This document shows positions 2,640-32,951 of a stretch of DNA of 64,000 nucleotides, piece by piece. The translations under genes were made by a program, and so were the position numbers. Numbering within the stretch: position 1 is the stretch's first letter; each line of letters opens with the position of its first letter. This stretch comes from Planctomycetota bacterium (GTDB lineage Bacteria > Planctomycetota > Phycisphaerae > Phycisphaerales > UBA1924), in contig JAGWZK010000016.1 in assembly GCA_018968885.1 (NCBI GenBank), forward strand, positions 1-64,000. The letters are read 5' to 3'. Below the pieces are notes generated by a model. That model ran no database searches. It was given only the letters and a program-made list of their open reading frames with translations, and was not told the DNA's origin.

Positions 2640-4157
2640 TTAACCCTGCAGCAAGCTGAGCACGCTCTGCGGCTGCTGGTTGGCCAGGGTCAGAATCTGC
2701 GTCGAGCTCTGCACCAGGATCTGGGCTCGGGTGAGCGAGGCAGTCTCGGTGGCGAAGTCGGCATCACGGATCACCGACTGAGCCGCGGTGGTGTTTTCCA
2801 CCGCGATATTGAGCGAACGAATCGTCGCGCCCACGGTGTTCTGCTGGAAAGCCCCCAGGCGACCGCGAAGAGCCGATATCTGTTTGGTGGATTCTTCAAC
2901 CACGCGCTGGGCCTGAGTCAGGTTACCATCGACGATGTTGTTGGCCTTGCCACTGGCGAGTTCGGAGAGGAAGCCGATGGACGCGGTTCCGAGCTTGCGG
3001 ACAGCGACATCCGCGATACCCAGCGACACCTTGCCACCGATGTCAACCTTGCCAGCAAGCTGGAAGTCAGCACCACCGCCGGTGATGCTGAAGGCGCGGA
3101 AGCTGAACCCGCTGGGTGTCTGTGCTTGAGCGGAAGTCAAAGTCATATCCACATCCAGGAAGTCGGTATTGATCCGGATGCGGCGGCCATCTGTCGTGGC
3201 GGTGATGCCGTTGACCGTGGCGCGGATGTTCTGGCCGGTGTCACGCGTGCCGTTAAGAGCCGCCGAGGAATCTACAGCGACTCGGCTGCTGGCATCGATG
3301 GTGCCGAATGCGGTGGACTGCATCTGATAGATGCCGCCCGTTGCGTTGCCCAAGCCACCATCATCCGCGACGCGGACGCTGACAAACTCGGTCGAGCCAT
3401 ACTCGCCACTGATCATCTTGATCGCAGCACCAGAGACCGTCGCCTGCACGCCGGTGATATCCGCAAACGTGTTGATCGCCGAAACGATCGAACCCACCGA
3501 GGTGTTGTTCGAGAAGGTGAACTCACGGCTGCCCCTGGAGCCGGAGACTTCAATCCGGAAAGACTCATTGGTGCCGATGGAGAGCGCTGTGCCGCCGATG
3601 CTCATGATCAAACCGGCCTGCTGGGCCGACTGCGTGATTTGCACATCAACGTTCAGAGCATTGCCAGCGTACTTGGCTGAGTTGATCTTGAAATCACTCA
3701 CGCCGGTGGAAACGCCGCTGGTCTTGAAGTCAAACGAACCGTTCAAGAGCTTGATCCCCTGAAACGAGGTCGCGCTGGAGATGCGGTCGATGGTCTGCAG
3801 GATCGAATCGATCTGCAACTGATTGGCTTGCTTCTCTTCCTTGGAAAGACCTGCGGTGCTGGCAGAGGTCGTGATCAGACCTTGGAGTTCTTCCAAGAGT
3901 GAAGAGACTTCCTGCAGACCGCTCTCGGCGATGTTGGTCACCTGATCCGCACGCTCGCTGTTGGCAACGGCGGCATTCAGAGCCTTGATCTCGGAGCGGA
4001 GATTCTCGCTGGCGATGAGGCCAGCGGGATCATCCTTGCCGCGGTTGATCCGCAGGCCGGTGGAAAGGCGCTCAAGCGAAGTGTTAAGTGCACCCTTATT
4101 CTGACCCAGGATGCGCTGAGCGATTGAGGCCTGAACGTTGCTGTTGATGCGACTCAT
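2640..4157 (-). CDS. fliC: Flagellin 1
   Basis: Protein of 505 residues forming the flagellar filament. The conserved D0/D1 N terminus is clear (MSRINSNV, LERLSTGLRINRG, DDPAGLIASE near residues 30-50) and so is the C-terminal D1/D0 helix (TETASLTRAQILVQSSTQIL, ending NQQPQSVLSLLQG). The central ~200 residues form D2/D3, a region shared with flagellins 2 and 3. Ribosome site GGAGG eleven bases before the ATG sits in the sequence TCACGGAGGTT. It is the last of four tandem flagellin genes and has its own terminator. Exported by the flagellar type III machine. Confidence 0.95.
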   Translation of the reverse strand: MSRINSNVQASIAQRILGQNKGALNTSLERLSTGLRINRGKDDPAGLIASENLRSEIKALNAAVANSERADQVTNIAESGLQEVSSLLEELQGLITTSASTAGLSKEEKQANQLQIDSILQTIDRISSATSFQGIKLLNGSFDFKTSGVSTGVSDFKINSAKYAGNALNVDVQITQSAQQAGLIMSIGGTALSIGTNESFRIEVSGSRGSREFTFSNNTSVGSIVSAINTFADITGVQATVSGAAIKMISGEYGSTEFVSVRVADDGGLGNATGGIYQMQSTAFGTIDASSRVAVDSSAALNGTRDTGQNIRATVNGITATTDGRRIRINTDFLDVDMTLTSAQAQTPSGFSFRAFSITGGGADFQLAGKVDIGGKVSLGIADVAVRKLGTASIGFLSELASGKANNIVDGNLTQAQRVVEESTKQISALRGRLGAFQQNTVGATIRSLNIAVENTTAAQSVIRDADFATETASLTRAQILVQSSTQILTLANQQPQSVLSLLQG

Positions 4158-4161
4158 AACG

Positions 4162-4172
4162 AACCTCCGTGA
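4162..4172 (-). promoter_or_regulatory. CsrA-like site over the flagellin 1 ribosome site
   Basis: The minus strand reads TCACGGAGGTT just before the flagellin 1 start. The same core occurs before flagellins 3 and 4. ACGGAGG matches the ANGGA core bound by CsrA. No stable local hairpin presents it here, unlike in front of flagellin 4. Function is inferred from the nearby csrA and fliW genes. Confidence 0.4.
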
Positions 4173-4443: not shown

Positions 4444-5952
4444 TTAGCCCAGAAGCTGGAGGACGCTCTGAGGCTGCTGGTTGGCCAGGGTCAGAATCTG
4501 GGTCGAGCTCGACACCAGAATCTGTGCACGGGTCAGACCGGCTGTCTCGGTCGCGAAGTTGGCATCGCGAATGGTGGACTGAGCAGCAGCGGTGTTTTCA
4601 GCAGCGACGTTCAAGGAGCGAGTGGTCGCGCCAATGACGTTCTTCTGGAATGCGCCCAGGCGACCGCGGAGAGCGGAAACCTGCTTGGTGGCTTCTTCAA
4701 CAACACGCTGAGCATCGGTGAGGTCGCCATCGACGACGTTGTTGTTCTTGCCGCTGGCCAGATCGCTGAGAAATCCGAGGGTTGCGTTGCCGAGCTTACG
4801 AGCGGCGACATCGGTGATACCCAGTGAGACCTTGCCGCCGATATCCACGCGACCGGCGAGCTGGAAGTCCGCACCGCCACCAGTGACGGTGAGACCAGTA
4901 AAGGTGCCGTTGCTCTGGGCGCGGCTGGTGGTCAAGGTCATATCGACGTCGAGGAAGTCAGTGGAGACCCGAATCCGCTTGCCATCGCTGGTGGCGGCGA
5001 CGCCATTGACCGTGGCGCGAATATTCTGACCTTCATCGCGAATGCCGTTGGTGGCAGCAGAGTCATCCAGAGTGATGCGTGATCCGGCGTTGATGGTGCC
5101 CCAGGCCGTCGACTGCATCTGATAGACGCCGCCGGTGGCTGAGCCAAGGCCGCCATCATCGACGATCTTGACGTTGACGAACTCAGACGAGCCAAACTCG
5201 TCGGAGATGATCTTGATGGCACCACCGGATGTGGTGGCTTCGACGCCGGTGATGTCGGTGTAGGTGTTGATGGCCGACATGATGTTGTTGGCCGTCGCAC
5301 CGTTGGCAAAGCTGAGCTGGCGGCTGCCCTTACTGCCGGTGATTTCGATAACAAATGACTCGCTGGTTCCGATGGCGAGCGTGGTGCCACCCATGCTCAT
5401 GATCAGACCTGCCTGCTGGGCCGACTGGGTCACTTGGACATCAACATTGAGGGAGTCGCCAGCAAACTTGGCGGAGTTGATCTTGTAGTCGCTCACACCG
5501 GTGGAAATGCCGCTGGTCTTGAAATCGAAGTTGCCGTTGAGGAGCTTGATCCCCTGGAACGAGGTGGCGCTGGAAATGCGATCGATGGTCTGGAGGATCG
5601 AGTCAATCTGCAGCTGGTTGGCCTGCTTCTCTTCCTTGGAGAGACCGGCCGAGCTGGCGGTAGCGGTCACGAGGCCCTGAAGTTCTTCGAGAAGACCGGA
5701 GACTTCCTGCAGACCACCTTCGGCGATGCCCACGACCTGATCGGCGCGCTCGCTGTTGGCGATGGCCGAGTTGATGCTGCGGAGTTCGTTGCCCAAGTTG
5801 TTGCTGGCAATGAGGCCAGCAGGATCATCCGAGCCACGGTTGATCCGCAGGCCGGTGGAAAGGCGCTCCAGCGACTTGTTGAGCATCGACTTGTTGGAAT
5901 TGAGCATGCGCTCAGCCGAGATCGAGGTCACGTTGGTATTAATACGACTCAT
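4444..5952 (-). CDS. fliC: Flagellin 2
   Basis: Protein of 502 residues, filament subunit. N terminus MSRINTNVTSISAERML and DDPAGLIASNNL, C terminus TRAQILVSSSTQIL and NQQPQSVLQLLG, are the conserved flagellin helices. By eye it is closest to flagellin 3, with long runs the same through D2/D3. Its leader differs from the other three: ribosome site AAGGAA lies in a GTTC-AAGGAA-GAAC element. A sigma-54-like promoter lies about 75-100 bases upstream. Separate terminator, so likely monocistronic. Confidence 0.95.
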   Translation of the reverse strand: MSRINTNVTSISAERMLNSNKSMLNKSLERLSTGLRINRGSDDPAGLIASNNLGNELRSINSAIANSERADQVVGIAEGGLQEVSGLLEELQGLVTATASSAGLSKEEKQANQLQIDSILQTIDRISSATSFQGIKLLNGNFDFKTSGISTGVSDYKINSAKFAGDSLNVDVQVTQSAQQAGLIMSMGGTTLAIGTSESFVIEITGSKGSRQLSFANGATANNIMSAINTYTDITGVEATTSGGAIKIISDEFGSSEFVNVKIVDDGGLGSATGGVYQMQSTAWGTINAGSRITLDDSAATNGIRDEGQNIRATVNGVAATSDGKRIRVSTDFLDVDMTLTTSRAQSNGTFTGLTVTGGGADFQLAGRVDIGGKVSLGITDVAARKLGNATLGFLSDLASGKNNNVVDGDLTDAQRVVEEATKQVSALRGRLGAFQKNVIGATTRSLNVAAENTAAAQSTIRDANFATETAGLTRAQILVSSSTQILTLANQQPQSVLQLLG

Positions 5953-6167
5953 GGGGTTCTTCCTTGAACGACCGATTCCCTTGGCGCCCCGGGAGGGTCC
6001 AATCTCCGGGGTTCAGACGTGCGTGGTCAACGCGACCTGCACCGACTGTGCCGCCGACACCGTTGGATCGGGTTCAATCACCGGAAACATGTGTGACGGG
6101 GGACCGGAAACCGCGAAAGCCCGTTCCCAAAACGGCGCAGCCCTCACAGACGGAACAGTCGGAAAAG
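5953..6167 (-). other. Leader and upstream region of flagellin 2
   Basis: This stretch between flagellins 2 and 3 has no gene. On the minus strand it carries a ribosome site AAGGAA flanked by GTTC and GAAC (four-base-pair stem, hexaloop with GGA), and further up a GC-rich hairpin near 5986-6011 (CCCCGGAG against CTCCCGGGG with one bulged base). The candidate sigma-54 promoter is listed separately. Long plus-strand frames here are antisense shadows of the flagellin genes. Confidence 0.45.
6038..6053 (-). promoter_or_regulatory. Possible sigma-54 promoter for flagellin 2
   Basis: Minus strand CGGCACAGTCGGTGCA has GG and GC separated by exactly ten bases, with GGCAC at -24 and TGCA at -12, against the consensus TGGCACGNNNNTTGCA. 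Predicted start of transcription near 6027 gives a leader of about 75 bases. Three mismatches make this the weakest of the sigma-54 candidates in the window. Confidence 0.35.
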
Positions 6168-6265: not shown

Positions 6266-7774
6266 TTAGCCCAGGAGCTGCAGCACGCCCTGTGGCTGCT
6301 GGTTGGCCAACGAGAGAATCTGCGTCGAGCTGGAGACGAGAATCTGAGCGCGGGTCAGATTCGCGGTTTCAGTCGCGAAGTTGGCGTCGCGGATTGTGGA
6401 CTGAGCCGCGGTGGTGTTCTCAGCAGCGACGTTCAAGGAGCGAGTGGTCGCACCGATGACGTTCTTCTGGAAGGCACCAAGGCGACCACGCAGCGCCGAG
6501 ACCTGCTTGGTGGCCTCTTCGACGACGCGCTGGGCATCGGTCACGTCGCCATCGACGACGTTGTTGTCCTTGCCGCTGGCCAGATCGCTGAGATAACCCA
6601 GGGCGGACGAACCGAGCTTACGCACGGCGACGTCATTGATGCCCAGGGCAACCTTGCCACCGATATCCACCTTACCAGCGAGCTGGAAGGAGGCGCCACC
6701 GCCGGTCACGGTCAGACCGGTGAAGGTGCCGTTGGACTGAGCGCGGGAATCGGTCAGCGTGAGGTCGACATCGAGGAAGTCGGTCGACACGCGGACGCGC
6801 TTACCATCGCTGGTCGCGGCGACACCATTGACAGTGGCGCGGACGTTCTGGCCTTCGTCACGGATGCCGTTGCTGGCAGCCGAGGCGTCGAGAGCGACGC
6901 GTGAAGAGGTGTTGGTGGTACCGAAGGCGTTTGAAGTCATCTGGTAGACGCCGCCCGTGGATGAACCGAGGCCGCCGTCATCGATAATCTTGATGTTGAC
7001 GAACTCAGAGGAGCCAAACTCCTCGGAAACAACCTTGATCGCGCCACCCGAAGTGGTGGCCTCAACGCCAGTGATATCTGAGTAGGTGTTGATGGCCGAC
7101 ATGATGTTGTTGGCCGTGGTGCCGTTGGCGAAGCTGAGCTGACGGCTGCCCTTGCTGCCGGTGATTTCAACGACGAACGACTCGCTGGTTCCGATGGCGA
7201 GGGTTGTACCACCCATGCTCATGACCAGGCCGGCCTGCTGAGCAGACTGGGTGACCTGAACGTCAACGTTGAGCGAATCGGTGTTGAACTTGGCGCTGTT
7301 GATCTTGAAGTCGGAAACGCCGGTCGACACGCCGCTGGTGCGGAAGTCGAAGTTACCGTTCAGCAGCTTGATGCCCTGGAAACTGGTGGCGCTGGCAATG
7401 CGATCGATGGTCTGCAGAATCGAATCGATCTGCAGCTGATTGGCCTGCTTCTCTTCCTTGGAAAGACCGGCATCGCTGGCTGAGGCGGTGACGAGGCCCT
7501 GGAGTTCTTCCAGCATACCCGAGACTTCCTGCAGACCACCCTCGGCGATGCCCACGACCTGATCCGCCCGCTCGCTGTTGGCGATGGCGGCGTTCAAGCC
7601 CTTAAGCTCGTTGGAGAGATTGTTGCTGGCGATCAGACCGGCAGGATCATCACCACCGCGGTTGATGCGCAAGCCGGTGGAGAGACGCTCCAGCGACGTG
7701 TTGAGCATCAACTTGTTGGAGTTGAGCATGCGCTGAGCGCTGATGGCCGTGACGTTGGTATTGATGCGACTCAT
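6266..7774 (-). CDS. fliC: Flagellin 3
   Basis: Protein of 502 residues, filament subunit. Conserved ends MSRINTNVTAISAQRML, RINRGGDDPAGLIASNNL and the C-terminal LTRAQILVSSSTQIL, NQQPQGVLQLLG. Same length as flagellin 2 and visibly its closest relative, differing mostly by scattered substitutions, which points to a recent duplication. Ribosome site lies in TCACGGAGGTT as in flagellin 1. Own terminator downstream, and the terminator of flagellin 4 upstream, so it is transcribed alone. Confidence 0.95.
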   Translation of the reverse strand: MSRINTNVTAISAQRMLNSNKLMLNTSLERLSTGLRINRGGDDPAGLIASNNLSNELKGLNAAIANSERADQVVGIAEGGLQEVSGMLEELQGLVTASASDAGLSKEEKQANQLQIDSILQTIDRIASATSFQGIKLLNGNFDFRTSGVSTGVSDFKINSAKFNTDSLNVDVQVTQSAQQAGLVMSMGGTTLAIGTSESFVVEITGSKGSRQLSFANGTTANNIMSAINTYSDITGVEATTSGGAIKVVSEEFGSSEFVNIKIIDDGGLGSSTGGVYQMTSNAFGTTNTSSRVALDASAASNGIRDEGQNVRATVNGVAATSDGKRVRVSTDFLDVDLTLTDSRAQSNGTFTGLTVTGGGASFQLAGKVDIGGKVALGINDVAVRKLGSSALGYLSDLASGKDNNVVDGDVTDAQRVVEEATKQVSALRGRLGAFQKNVIGATTRSLNVAAENTTAAQSTIRDANFATETANLTRAQILVSSSTQILSLANQQPQGVLQLLG

Positions 7775-8034
7775 GAAACCTCCGTGATCCCAGTGCGAGC
7801 GGGAGGATCCCGCGATCGGTTACCTTGCCACCGCTGGCAAGGCCCCGGTACGAACTCCGGCGAACACCGCAGGAGCCCGCCGCGCAGACTTCCGTGTCCA
7901 CGTGGCATGCCCGCTCGGCTGAGCGTGCGAACACGCTGGGATCGGAGACGTTCTCCCCAGGGTTCAGCATGGCGCACACTGACACCTTTGGCGGTGACGG
8001 ACTTTCCGAGTGCGCCATCCACGCACGGTCCGTA
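7775..8034 (-). other. Leader and upstream region of flagellin 3
   Basis: No gene is supported here. Next to the start the minus strand reads TCACGGAGGTT (7777-7787); GGATC and GTTTC around the hexaloop ACGGAG can pair with one mismatch and one G-U pair, a weaker form of the flagellin 4 hairpin. A five-base-pair GCGGG/CCCGC stem lies just above it near 7800-7814. I looked for a GG-N10-GC (sigma-54) and a TAAA-N15-GCCGATAA (sigma-28) promoter and found neither in good form. Confidence 0.4.
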
Positions 8035-8101: not shown

Positions 8102-9646
8102 TCAGCCCTGAAGGAGACTCAAGACCTGCTGTGACTGCTGATTGGCCAAGGAGAGCACGCTGGTGCCGGCACTGGAGAGAATCTGGGCACGAGTCAATTT
8201 GCTTGTTTCCGCAGCAAAATCCGCATCTCTGATCTGCGACTGGCTGGCCGAAAGATTCTCGAACGCGGTCTGCAGACTACGTGAGTTGGTCTGGAGAACA
8301 TTCTTCTCGAACGCGCCCAGGCGTCCACGCAGGAGACTGATCTCATCGATGGCTGTGTCGAGAATATCGGACGCGGTGGAGAAATCGCCGCGCCGCACCG
8401 ACTCAGCAATCGAGTTGACCTGACCATCCTTGAGCGAGTTCAGGTACTGCACCTGGTTATTCGCCAGCGTACCGCCGAGCCCGGTCGACGCGATGGACTG
8501 GATGCCGAAGTTGGCCTGCTGAAGAGCGGTGACATCCTGCCCAAGTTGGAAAAGTGCGCCGCCACCAGTGACGTAGAAGGTGGACGTGGTAGCATTGGGA
8601 CGAATCGCAAGAGCCGAGGTCAACTGCAAGTCAAGGCCCAGAGAGGCGGTGTTGGTGCTGAGCTTCAAGCCCCGTCCGGTAGCCAGACTGCCGTTGATGA
8701 GTGCGGCGACATCGCGTCCTTCGTCACGTTCGCCCTGCAACATGTTGACCCAGGTATTGGTGGCATCGGCCTGGTGAGCCGGATCCCACTTGAAGACCTG
8801 ACCGGACCAGAAGTCGCCGGCGGGGTCCTGGGGCTTTTGCAGACGCCGCACACTGACGAAGTTATCTGAGCCGTAGTTTTCACTGAGGAACTTGATGCCG
8901 TTGATGCTGCTGGCGGAGTAATTCTCGGCGGTAACGCCGGTCAAGATGGTGACACGATTGACCGCGTCGATCACACTCTGGATGGTTGCCGATTGGGGCA
9001 AGCTGATAGTTTCCACGCCGCGGGTGCCGGTGATTTCCAGCGTGACGGCGGAAACCATGCGACCGGGGTTGACAGTCTGATCGCGGTAGAAGACCTCGCC
9101 ACGTTGGGCGCTGGTGACGACATCGACATCCACCTGATAGGAGGCGTTACCGACGAATGAAGCGTTGCGGATTCGGGCGGTAGTGATGGCCGAGCCACTG
9201 ATGCCACTGGTGCGGTAGTCCAGGGTGCCGTTGAGCAGTTTCAACCCACCGAACGTGGTGGTGTTGGAGATGCGAGTGATTGATTCGATGGCCGAATCGA
9301 TCTGCAACTGGTTGGCGGCGCGTTCATCGGCACTGGTGGCGCCGGTGTTGGCGGACTCGACAATGAGCGACTTGATGCTGTTCAAGAGATCGCCGACTTC
9401 GGCCAGCGCGGCTTCGCCGGTGGCGATGACGCTGGAGGCACGGTCAGAGTTCTTGACGGCCGTGCTGACACCTTGAATATCCGAGCGGAGACGCTCGGAG
9501 ATGATCAGGCCAGCGGGATCATCGGCACCACGATTGATGCGCAGACCCGTGGAGAGACGCTCGAGGCGAAGGTTCAATTCCTTCGAGGTCTTCTGCAGGT
9601 TGGATTGGGCGATGACGCTAGAAATGTTCGTATTGATGCGGCTCAT
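8102..9646 (-). CDS. fliC: Flagellin 4 (divergent)
   Basis: Protein of 514 residues with conserved ends (MSRINTNISSVIAQSNLQK, RINRGADDPAGLIISERL; C terminus TRAQILSSAGTSVLSLANQQ). The middle differs strongly from flagellins 1-3 (for example RLQKPQDPAGDFWSGQVFKW near residue 265), so the exposed D2/D3 surface should differ; it may be a minor or position-specific filament subunit. The ribosome site lies in the loop of a perfect hairpin. It is nearest to csrA and fliW. Confidence 0.93.
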   Translation of the reverse strand: MSRINTNISSVIAQSNLQKTSKELNLRLERLSTGLRINRGADDPAGLIISERLRSDIQGVSTAVKNSDRASSVIATGEAALAEVGDLLNSIKSLIVESANTGATSADERAANQLQIDSAIESITRISNTTTFGGLKLLNGTLDYRTSGISGSAITTARIRNASFVGNASYQVDVDVVTSAQRGEVFYRDQTVNPGRMVSAVTLEITGTRGVETISLPQSATIQSVIDAVNRVTILTGVTAENYSASSINGIKFLSENYGSDNFVSVRRLQKPQDPAGDFWSGQVFKWDPAHQADATNTWVNMLQGERDEGRDVAALINGSLATGRGLKLSTNTASLGLDLQLTSALAIRPNATTSTFYVTGGGALFQLGQDVTALQQANFGIQSIASTGLGGTLANNQVQYLNSLKDGQVNSIAESVRRGDFSTASDILDTAIDEISLLRGRLGAFEKNVLQTNSRSLQTAFENLSASQSQIRDADFAAETSKLTRAQILSSAGTSVLSLANQQSQQVLSLLQG

Positions 9647-9647
9647 G

Positions 9648-9665
9648 GCAATCCTCCGTGATTGC
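9648..9665 (-). promoter_or_regulatory. Hairpin with ribosome site in its loop (CsrA-type site), flagellin 4 leader
   Basis: Two bases before the ATG the minus strand reads GCAATC-ACGGAG-GATTGC: a perfect six-base-pair stem with the hexaloop ACGGAG. This is the classical shape of a high-affinity CsrA site (GGA in a hairpin loop, overlapping the Shine-Dalgarno). csrA and fliW are the next genes upstream. Repression of flagellin translation by CsrA, relieved by FliW, is the inferred role. Confidence 0.6.
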
Positions 9666-9749: not shown

Positions 9750-10190
9750 TCATGATCCTGCCTTCCGTCCTCGGTTGACTCCGGTGGAACTGTTGGTTGA
9801 GGCCCCGGGGACCGGCGTCGCACGGCCAGCATCCCGAACCGCGTGCACACTCTGCGCGAGCTTGAGCTCACGTGCAGGAGCAACATCCGCGCCCGGCACT
9901 CGTGCAGCGATTGCGCGAGTTGCGGACTTGGCCGGGCCAGGCAGTATGCTGCCCATGGGCCCAGTTGCCCCAGCCACGGGGGAAAGCGAGGCAAGGTCGG
10001 TGCGGTCGATCCGCGCGGCCTGCTCATTCTCCCGTCGAATGGCCTCGTAAACCTCTTTGCGGTGAACGGCGATGCGTGTGGGGGCGTTGATCCCCACGCG
10101 CACCTTGTCACCGCGGATATCAACGACCGTGATCTCGATCTCGTCGCCGATCATGATCGTTTCGTCGCGTTGTCTGGACAGAACCAGCAT
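9750..10190 (-). CDS. csrA: CsrA translational regulator with long C-terminal extension
   Basis: Protein of 146 residues. Residues 1-62 are a normal CsrA ([38 protein letters not shown]), an RNA-binding homodimer that blocks ribosome access at GGA motifs. The start at 10190 is set by the invariant MLVLSR. The remaining ~84 residues, rich in Ala, Pro, Ser and Gly, are about twice what CsrA proteins usually carry in total and look disordered. It lies between fliW and the flagellin genes. In Bacillus FliW binds the CsrA C-terminal region; the extension may serve this or another partner (inference). Confidence 0.93.
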
Positions 10191-10330
10191 GTGGGGCTCC
10201 CGAATCCGTTCAGGGCCTTTCTCCCGTGCCACGCACCGACGGTGCGTACAAAGGCAAGAGAGTCTCCTCCGTGAGTGCGTGCTGAGGTAGGTTCATCATG
10301 CGGGCACGCCCGCCGCATGACTAAAGAGCA

Positions 10331-10795
10331 TCAGGCGGGAATGGCCCGCGGCTGCGAGGTCGTCCTGACCTGGGCAGCCACGTTCACCAATGGGTGGCGG
10401 GTGGTCCACTTCTTTTCCGCCAGAACCAATTGCTCGCCCGTGCGGGTGAGCGTGTTGATCACAAGCGGCCCCTGCAGGTTGCCCGTCAGGGTTTCGTCGA
10501 CCTTGTTGACGATGACAAAGACCTGAGCGTCTTCAAGCTTGCCCAGGCAGAGTTCATCCATCTGCTCGGCACGGATGGGCACGGCATATTCGGGCGCGAA
10601 AAGCGATGGATCAGTAATCACAAACGCCAAGGCCGGCTCATCCAGCGATTGCAGCCAGAAGAAGCAGGCATCTTCGCTGGGCTCAAGCAGGCAGAAACGC
10701 CTGTTATTGCCAAAGCCAAGAAGGCCCTTGGGAAACGTGATCACGCGATCTTCTCGAATCTCGATGGTTCCGAACCGAGTCGTACGTACTTCCAT
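10331..10795 (-). CDS. fliW: FliW flagellar assembly factor
   Basis: Protein of 154 residues. FliW is a small cytoplasmic protein that binds flagellin and antagonises CsrA, coupling filament protein synthesis to export. Diagnostic stretches are ITFPKGLLGFGNNRRFCLLE (residues ~16-35), WLQSLDEPALAFVITDP and LQGPLVINTLTRTGEQLVL. The start at 10795 gives the family-typical MEVRTTRFGTIEI and has GGTGGAG upstream; a longer frame to 10861 reads a non-family basic leader. It sits between flgL and csrA; this gene pair next to flagellins is a known arrangement. Confidence 0.93.
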   Translation of the reverse strand: MEVRTTRFGTIEIREDRVITFPKGLLGFGNNRRFCLLEPSEDACFFWLQSLDEPALAFVITDPSLFAPEYAVPIRAEQMDELCLGKLEDAQVFVIVNKVDETLTGNLQGPLVINTLTRTGEQLVLAEKKWTTRHPLVNVAAQVRTTSQPRAIPA

Positions 10796-10933: not shown

Positions 10934-13006
10934 TCAGCCGAGGTAATCCATGAGCGACTGCTGCCTCCCCACTGCCGTCACCTGCAACGCCGCCGAGAGC
11001 TGGCTCTGCAGAAGTGAGAACTGGGTGGCCGCAGCGGTAAAGTCCGTATCCTGCAAGGTGCTGCGCACGCTTTCATCAAGCGTGTCACGGTCCTGCTGGA
11101 AGGCGTCGGCTTGTTCCACCCGCTTGGAGTAGCTGCCGACCAGCCCTCGCGTTTCCGCGAGAGCACCTGCCGCGTCGCCCAACTTCTCTCCCGCAAGTGA
11201 GATGCCAGACGTGTCATTGCGCCTGAGCGCATCGCGCAGATCGATCAATTGTGTGAAAAGATTGTCAACCCGGATCTTGGCTCGATCCTCCCCTAAAAGG
11301 GTGGATGTGGTGACGTCGTACGTGGAGTCGAGCAAGCCCAGATCCTCTGCGGCTTGAGAGTTGTTCAACGAACGAACCGAAAGGGCCGCGGAAAACGCGG
11401 ACTCTTGAATCAATGCGATGCCGTTGCTTGCCGGATTCACCGCCGCAACCAATGCGTCTGGTGCAAGACCGGCAGACACGAGCTGCGGCGCGACTTGTGC
11501 ATTGATTCGATCGATAACGCTCTGCACGGTGAGCATGTCCTGCGGACGCAGATCGATGGTCAATTCGGTCCCGGCAGAATTACCGAGAGTGATCACCATG
11601 TCGGTGTTGAGACTCGCATCGATCTGACCGGATGTCGGATTCGTGCGGCCATCCACGATGTGAACACCGCGACCATCATTCAGATCCGTAATTCGGGTTG
11701 CGCCGGTGAAAGTGCGGATTCCGAGGGCCTGTGCGGTGGTGTCGGTCGAGGAGACGTTCTCAATGCTCAAGGCCTGGGCGGCACTGCCAGCGACTTCGTT
11801 GAAGATGTCTATTCCGTTGCCCGCCTGATTGATGCGGACACGCAACCCAAGATTGGTGGACTCGATGAGATTTCTCACATCCTCGATGGTCGATGCACCG
11901 CTCAGATCCACAACGGCGCTGTACCCCATGCTCTTGACGCGAATACTGCCCAACGCTTCGGACAGCCCCCCTAAAGAGGTGATAGGCGTAGTCATCGTCA
12001 GGCGAGGTGAGAGACTCAATCCGTCTGAAACCGACTGAGAGAAGGTGAGAGGACCCGTTGAGCTCGTCAAGCCAAGATCCGCGGCAGTCGTCACCCCGAT
12101 AAGGTCAAAAAACTCGATTGTCGCGCCAGCCGCGGCATCAATCGACAGGGATTCACCTGATACCCCCACCCCACCAGCATCAAGCACGACCGTTCCTTGG
12201 CGAGTGGCTTCAGCTTCGATGGCGGCCTGCAGGCGACGCGCGACGGCGTCAACGGTGTCAACGCCAGTCAGATCAACTGACACGCTAGCTTGCCCATTCA
12301 CGCTGAATTCCAGCGTGCCCAGTGAAACGCCAAGTCCGCGCGCACCGTTGACGTCGCTGAGACGAGTCGCAGTAGTCAGCCCGGGATCGAGATCCACAAG
12401 TCCTTGCATGCGGCCTGAGACCCCACCCAGCATGGTCCCCCCACCAAGGGTGATCGGCACGGAGCTGGCTGATCCGAGCTCTGCGAGCATGCCGTCACCT
12501 TGACCCTGATATCGATATCCACCGAGGAATTCCCGAACGGGCGGGGAAGAGATGATGCCACCACCCAGCACGTAACCAGTTTCACTCGTGCGCTGCGAAA
12601 TGGAAAGCAAGGATGCAATCATCTGATCCACGACTGTGGCCTGCTGTTCACGCTCGGCTGCGGACGACCCAACATTCACCTGGGTCGAAGCAATGTCACG
12701 AGCTTCGATAGCCAGATCCCCCGCGTCTTTGAAGCTGGAATCGAGGACCGCCAGCGAAGCTGAGGCATTCTCCATGTTTCGCTTCAGCTGCGTGCTGGCA
12801 TTCAGTCGTCCGTTGATGGCGCTGATCAGTGCCGCCTTCACCGAGTCGTCGCTGAAGCGTGTGACCGTTCGCCCTGTGGACAACTGTTCCTGCACACGGC
12901 CGATCGCAGACTGCGACCTGGTGATATGCGACAGCGACACCTGACTTTGCCAGAGATCGGGCGAACGAGTGATGCCAAAGGAGGGAATACTCATAGTTAG
13001 ACTCAC
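10934..13006 (-). CDS. flgL: Flagellar hook-filament junction protein FlgL
   Basis: Protein of 690 residues, much longer than enterobacterial FlgL (about 320). The N terminus (SLSHITRSQSAIGRVQEQLS, GRTVTRFSDDS) and C terminus (DTDFTAAATQFSLLQSQLSA) are the conserved junction-protein helices; an inserted region at about residues 170-590 contains repeated beta-rich blocks with the LGVSLGTLEFSVNG and DLTGVDTVDAV type pattern (flagellin hook IN-like). The frame opens with GTG at 13006 overlapping the flgK stop (GTGA); ATG at 12994 is an alternative start. It probably adds an exposed domain to the hook-filament junction. Confidence 0.85.
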   Translation of the reverse strand: MSLTMSIPSFGITRSPDLWQSQVSLSHITRSQSAIGRVQEQLSTGRTVTRFSDDSVKAALISAINGRLNASTQLKRNMENASASLAVLDSSFKDAGDLAIEARDIASTQVNVGSSAAEREQQATVVDQMIASLLSISQRTSETGYVLGGGIISSPPVREFLGGYRYQGQGDGMLAELGSASSVPITLGGGTMLGGVSGRMQGLVDLDPGLTTATRLSDVNGARGLGVSLGTLEFSVNGQASVSVDLTGVDTVDAVARRLQAAIEAEATRQGTVVLDAGGVGVSGESLSIDAAAGATIEFFDLIGVTTAADLGLTSSTGPLTFSQSVSDGLSLSPRLTMTTPITSLGGLSEALGSIRVKSMGYSAVVDLSGASTIEDVRNLIESTNLGLRVRINQAGNGIDIFNEVAGSAAQALSIENVSSTDTTAQALGIRTFTGATRITDLNDGRGVHIVDGRTNPTSGQIDASLNTDMVITLGNSAGTELTIDLRPQDMLTVQSVIDRINAQVAPQLVSAGLAPDALVAAVNPASNGIALIQESAFSAALSVRSLNNSQAAEDLGLLDSTYDVTTSTLLGEDRAKIRVDNLFTQLIDLRDALRRNDTSGISLAGEKLGDAAGALAETRGLVGSYSKRVEQADAFQQDRDTLDESVRSTLQDTDFTAAATQFSLLQSQLSAALQVTAVGRQQSLMDYLG

Positions 13007-32939: not shown

Positions 32940-32951
32940 GGCCTCCGTGCC
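32940..32951 (-). promoter_or_regulatory. Ribosome site of fliF in an ACGGAG hexaloop
   Basis: The minus strand reads GGC-ACGGAG-GCC six bases before the fliF GTG: a three-base-pair stem presenting the same hexaloop found before flagellin 4. The short stem makes this a weak candidate for CsrA binding. Confidence 0.35.

Follow-up and report, generated by a model that had tools for sequence, protein, structure and literature searches.

The window, i.e. the whole 64-kb stretch of DNA that was analyzed, comes from a planctomycete of the order Phycisphaerales, and its closest named genomes, judged by FliW, are metagenome-assembled genomes (MAGs) of the same order. On the minus strand we identified genes for four flagellins, CsrA and FliW, together with leader elements built around the core ANGGA at or near the Shine-Dalgarno (SD) sequences:

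2640..4157, minus strand: flagellin 1 (F1), by Pfam
4164..4172, minus strand: F1 SD core TCACGGAGG, almost stemless
4444..5952, minus strand: flagellin 2 (F2), by Pfam
5956..5969, minus strand: F2 SD hairpin GTTC-AAGGAA-GAAC, GGA in a hexaloop, 4 bp
6266..7774, minus strand: flagellin 3 (F3), by Pfam
7774..7792, minus strand: F3 SD site TGGGATC-ACGGA-GGTTTCA, 7 pairs including three G-U, loop of 5 nt
7883..7902, minus strand: F3 upstream hairpin CGTGGAC-ACGGAA-GTCTGCG, loop beginning 121 nt before the ATG
8102..9646, minus strand: flagellin 4 (F4), the csrA-adjacent flagellin, by Pfam Flagellin_N and Flagellin_C
9665..9648, minus strand: F4 SD hairpin GCAATC-ACGGAG-GATTGC, loop 9659..9654 comprising ANGGA and most of the SD GGAGG
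9750..10190, minus strand: csrA (CsrA1, 146 aa, with a C-terminal extension, I51 and N55), by Pfam and a match to the CsrA of 5dmb
10195..10217, minus strand: csrA leader hairpin GGC-CCTGA-ACGGAT-TCGGG-A-GCC, loop 10209..10204, the 3' arm containing the csrA SD GGGAG
10264..10275, minus strand: second, weak ANGGA site of the csrA leader, CTC-ACGGAG-GAG
10331..10795, minus strand: fliW, by Pfam FliW and a match to the FliW of 5dmb
32940..32951, minus strand: weak fliF SD candidate GGC-ACGGAG-GCC, three pairs

As an earlier note on this DNA had stated, csrA and fliW are the upstream neighbors of F4, and the gene order fliW-csrA-flagellin is kept in nearly all relatives, FliW itself being found in 60 of 61. 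A hairpin resembling a terminator lies 3' of F4 and a weaker one 3' of F2, while inspection of the sequence reveals a similar GC-rich inverted repeat 3' of F3; hence, each flagellin gene probably has its own leader. The sigma-54 promoter pattern was not found upstream of the window flagellins, and occurs upstream of flagellins in some relatives (e.g. loci L088, L101 and L106). Directly upstream of fliW lies a gene (10934-13006, minus strand) for an FlgL/hook-associated-like protein with weak Flagellin_N and Flagellin_C matches.

The perfect six-pair stem claimed before F4 is present, covers the F4 ribosome site and stops one base short of the ATG, and the SD sequence said to be shared, TCACGGAGG, is common to F1 (4172..4164), F3 (7787..7779) and F4 (9661..9653), all on the minus strand. 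The supposed absence of a CsrA-type core from F2 was not borne out, as its SD hairpin displays AAGGA, a form of ANGGA, in its hexaloop. The three-pair version proposed before fliF does exist, but three pairs are barely above chance and the site scores a non-significant E = 2 with the covariance model used below; fliF was accordingly set aside as a CsrA target. The heptamer ACGGAGG occurs in the window no more often than expected (7 observed versus 9 expected), so the argument has to come from position and structure. An exhaustive scan of the 64 kb for ANGGA in loops of 5-6 nt closed by at least 5 bp recovered seven hairpins, with none on the plus strand, and four of the seven are the F4 SD hairpin, the F3 SD site, the F3 upstream hairpin and the csrA leader hairpin. 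With the loop fixed and the flanks shuffled, an equally good hairpin arises with p of 0.016 for F4, 0.04 for F3, 0.058 for F2 and 0.078 for F1, and given such chances of 1.6-8% the window taken alone is only suggestive. Folding energy is no argument here because the free-energy z-scores of the 100-nt leaders show no stability excess. The minimum-energy fold of the 100-nt F4 leader lacks the hairpin, whose pairing probability in a 70-nt context is 0.63 (the order-wide median is 0.82 in 70 nt and 0.58 in 160 nt); we regard the local hairpin in its sequence context as a likely, not a certain, fold. An Rfam search returned no noteworthy match to any family.

Across the order, the leaders of csrA-adjacent flagellins share an invariant C-ANGGAG-G, with N being C, A, T or G, in 51 of 51 sequences. 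Most of the genomes used throughout are MAGs, and the leaders come from two overlapping collections with identical sequences removed and near-identical ones kept. Stem pairs 1-5 form in 51, 51, 49, 48 and 47 of these leaders, and nothing upstream of the hairpin is equally conserved. The covariation score of the stem is 0.171 versus 0.101 for shuffled alignments, a value that none of 500 shuffles reaches; four of the six pairs are altered on both sides, and slid controls stay at or below 0.065. At locus L119, for instance, CAAUC/GAUUG is replaced by CAAAC/GUUUG, and the sixth pair occurs as G-C, A-U or C-G. The check proposed in the earlier note, namely stem covariation and motif conservation in orthologous flagellin leaders, thus came out positive. 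A covariance model of the hairpin finds a single significant place in the genome of the window, F4 (31.7 bits, E 2.4e-4); the next-best match (E 0.3) lies within a reading frame, as do most of the other weak matches there. Phylum-wide, the matches L216, L220, L223 and L228 from outside the order are also flagellin leaders.

We observed that the flagellin paralogs of the order display two layouts. A strong SD hairpin precedes 82 of the 104 csrA-adjacent flagellins, and an upstream hairpin 4 of them; for the other 136 flagellins, the counts are 19 with a strong SD hairpin, 43 with an upstream hexaloop hairpin and 17 without any site. The upstream hairpins are located 66-161 nt from the start, most frequently with the loop ACGGAT, as against a hairpin in 1.8% of random 170-nt segments, and the two layouts avoid each other (Fisher p 0.0016). 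Within the window, F4 has a single SD hairpin, F3 combines its upstream hairpin (7902..7883) with an SD site, F2 has the 4-bp SD hexaloop and F1 the core only. The claim that hairpin quality sets the strength of control for each flagellin is therefore too simple, because the layouts themselves differ, a single SD hairpin in one and a weak SD site with an upstream hairpin in the other. A single CsrA dimer could bridge the weak SD site and the stronger upstream hairpin of the latter.

The csrA leader hairpin, missing from the earlier reading of the window, has a free energy of -10.8 kcal/mol when folded alone and is also present in the computed fold of the leader. An ANGGAN hexaloop closed by 5 bp or more is found in 49 of 108 distinct csrA leaders of the order, as compared with 1.2% of random segments and none on the antisense strand, and about 59 of the 108 have no hairpin of 5 bp; the stems differ between genera and are unrelated in sequence. 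A sister family within the class also possesses such a hairpin (genome G116), and it was seen in 2 of 14 FliW-containing genomes compared as lying outside the class, one of the two being of the same class. As most other FliW-containing lineages are devoid of it, csrA autoregulation is predicted mainly for this class. Given that the csrA leader bears hairpins like those of the flagellin leaders, with one of the CsrA-type sites at the SD in the window, CsrA probably restrains its own synthesis as well. It is unlikely, though a possibility deserving some weight, that the csrA-leader hairpins instead serve fliW regulation or transcript processing, for example as a CsrA sponge in a fliW-csrA-flagellin transcript. 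Many of them do occupy the fliW-csrA intergenic region at 40-100 nt before csrA, off its SD, and the Campylobacter flaA mRNA has been described as a CsrA sponge (PMC4894983); however, the hairpin overlaps the csrA SD in the window and in some relatives, and a sponge and autoregulation are not mutually exclusive.

CsrA1 matches the CsrA of the CsrA-FliW complex 5dmb, and its I51 and N55 are found in 100% of the aligned members of the order. Residues V/I51 and N55 of CsrA are required for FliW binding in Campylobacter jejuni, and N55 in Bacillus subtilis too (PMC7829508). About 55 of 61 relatives additionally encode a second, divergent CsrA (CsrA2) away from fliW (here L002, G000:C18:9429-9593), which by eye keeps the RNA-contact residue R44 and has a proline at the position of the FliW-contact residue N55; on account of this proline, CsrA2 is probably FliW-independent. 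The near-ubiquity of CsrA2 in the relatives and the apparent retention of its R44 raise the alternative that the hairpins are bound by CsrA2, or by another ANGGA-binding protein, with FliW and CsrA1 uninvolved. We consider this highly improbable, since the CsrA1 gene lies between fliW and a flagellin gene in almost every genome with its FliW-contact residues kept, and most genomes of family f5 have a single CsrA and yet perfect flagellin hairpins (G040, G044 and G060).

Among 294 planctomycete genomes, FliW is almost always accompanied by CsrA. Outside the order, strong flagellin-leader hairpins were recovered in 18/38 cases with both FliW and CsrA, 0/6 with only CsrA and 1/36 where both are missing; the contrast of 18/38 with 1/42 for genomes lacking FliW or both (Fisher p 1.6e-6) is confounded by class and lineage, the FliW-minus genomes belonging to other lineages, and concerns genes picked from the top of the match list rather than at random. 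The hairpins are also specific within genomes. When GGAG-preceded starts were compared in the contigs around fliW and the flagellins, which also supplied the background genes, an A-N-GGAG loop on a stem of 4 bp or more was present at 69/109 flagellin starts versus 5/643 others; two of these five are themselves flagellins, leaving about 3/641. ANGGAN hexaloops on stems of 6 bp or more amount to 131 hairpins in 3.84 Mb (both strands counted), and 112 of them fall in the flagellin/csrA leader zone (at most 220 nt from a flagellin start or 200 nt from a csrA start), which covers 2.3% of the bases, versus 19 elsewhere, a ratio of 251. The thresholds were set after seeing examples, and under identical thresholds sixteen other loop cores gave 0-3 hairpins in the zone. 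Another highly improbable explanation is that the motif is simply a good SD, the hairpins being fortuitous or tuning ribosome access without CsrA: CACGGAGG indeed contains the SD GGAGG, ACGGAGG shows no excess in the window and the F4 fold in context is not clear-cut, but only about 3/641 other SDs of the same contigs lie in such a loop, strong hairpins are found 66-161 nt upstream as well, away from any start codon, the core is specifically ANGGA, and flagellins of genomes without FliW/CsrA lack such hairpins (1/42).

Some of the strong hairpins outside the leader zone precede other flagellar genes, namely flgI (four genomes), a weak FlgN match (two) and fliW (one). The first is a perfect 8-bp hairpin, GGCACGAC-ACGGAG-GTCGTGCC, 14 nt before flgI (P-ring) at L123, L126, L127 and L130 in related genomes; those before the weak FlgN match are at L077 and L146.

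Conservation, covariation, loop-core specificity, the FliW-contact residues and the phylum contrast together lend strong support to the FliW-CsrA-flagellin switch that the earlier note had proposed to act via the hairpin. ANGGA with its GGA in a loop of 5-6 nt recurs in the window at F4, F3, F2 and the csrA leader; across the order, the stem of the csrA-adjacent flagellin leaders shows compensatory changes and the csrA-leader stems are unrelated. FliW is present alongside, CsrA has the extension and the contact residues, and a candidate CsrA site lies over a flagellin SD. With considerable confidence, we posit that the leader hairpins are CsrA sites within a flagellin-FliW-CsrA switch in which CsrA probably limits itself. 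From the comparative picture we infer that CsrA binds and represses these messages, that FliW switches this repression, that a CsrA dimer can bridge two sites and that CsrA regulates itself. The steps of repression and release are proposed by analogy to B. subtilis and C. jejuni (PMC7652899, PMC4894983). A CsrA dimer would grip the ANGGA loops of the flagellin leaders and cover the ribosome site, thereby stopping flagellin translation, until the messages are released by FliW binding to the C-terminal helix of CsrA. Accumulating unsecreted flagellin would then sequester FliW and CsrA would repress again, a feedback that would keep flagellin synthesis matched to export. The csrA-adjacent flagellin would be held by one hairpin right on its SD and the other flagellins often by the weaker SD site and the stronger hairpin 66-161 nt upstream, perhaps by one dimer, while the csrA leader hairpins would allow CsrA to restrict its own production. 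More tentatively, and with our doubts slightly outweighing our belief, CsrA may act throughout the order as a near-dedicated flagellin regulator that is self-controlled via the fliW-csrA leader, with the paralogs split into two repression layouts. In the contigs surrounding fliW and the flagellins, about 1.9 Mb in all, flagellin or csrA messages account for more than 80% of the strong hairpin sites. If this proposal is true, the two layouts could set the order of flagellin production as FliW frees messages from CsrA.

In their ACGGAN hexaloop closed by C-G, the Phycisphaerales hairpins resemble the RsmE-hcnA type of Pseudomonas, which has an ACGGAU hexaloop, different targets and antagonism by sRNAs instead of FliW (RsmE structures 2jpp and 2mf0). 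The kind of switch is already known from Bacillus and Campylobacter, and the planctomycete circuit is a variant of it. The C. jejuni flaA leader has two ANGGA stem-loops, of which the second covers the ribosome site. They are conserved across the genus with compensatory changes, and FliW antagonizes CsrA there (PMC4894983); the Phycisphaerales flagellin leaders are alike in the ANGGA loops, the ribosome-site hairpin and the compensatory changes. However, C. jejuni has fliW apart from csrA and both loops close together in a 45-nt leader, whereas in Phycisphaerales fliW, csrA and flagellin are adjacent, with the upstream hairpin at a distance of 66-161 nt; the four window paralogs with their differing layouts are also unlike flaA. 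The B. subtilis hag leader has two CsrA sites, one of them on the SD, in a Hag-FliW-CsrA partner switch (reviewed in PMC7652899). That organism has a single flagellin with two leader sites, as opposed to the single strong SD hairpin of the csrA-adjacent flagellin here, and a csrA leader hairpin such as is predicted here was not found described for it in the literature examined. CsrA of Escherichia coli represses translation of its own message (PMC7652899), in a system that uses CsrB/C sRNAs and lacks FliW; the self-binding site predicted here belongs to a FliW-type system and lies between fliW and csrA.

What is new is the predicted csrA self-control hairpin and the two flagellin leader layouts in a planctomycete FliW-CsrA-flagellin circuit. 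Among papers naming CsrA with Planctomycetes, none appeared to treat such a circuit by titles, abstracts and term counts, in a search that many subscription papers lay outside. The comparative evidence extends the switch to Planctomycetota beyond mere gene presence, supports the view that flagellar control is an ancient role of CsrA and adds a predicted csrA feedback loop to a FliW-type system. It also offers a concrete hypothesis of how multi-flagellin bacteria might handle each flagellin message separately.

Family f32 (e.g. G107, G128 and G250) displays a large csrA expansion, with about 9-17 CsrA copies per genome and FliW absent. G050 and G058 (family f2), G048 (f5), G042 and G054, which are 96-98% complete, encode FliW and CsrA with no flagellin match; as FlhA is likewise absent from G050, G058 and G048, FliW-CsrA seems to be retained there without flagella. 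In G048, the covariance model matches GGTCGATCACGGAGGATCGCC at L218 (G048:C44:35045-35064; E 0.002), directly over the SD of a gene probably encoding alanine racemase, a possible non-flagellar target of CsrA.
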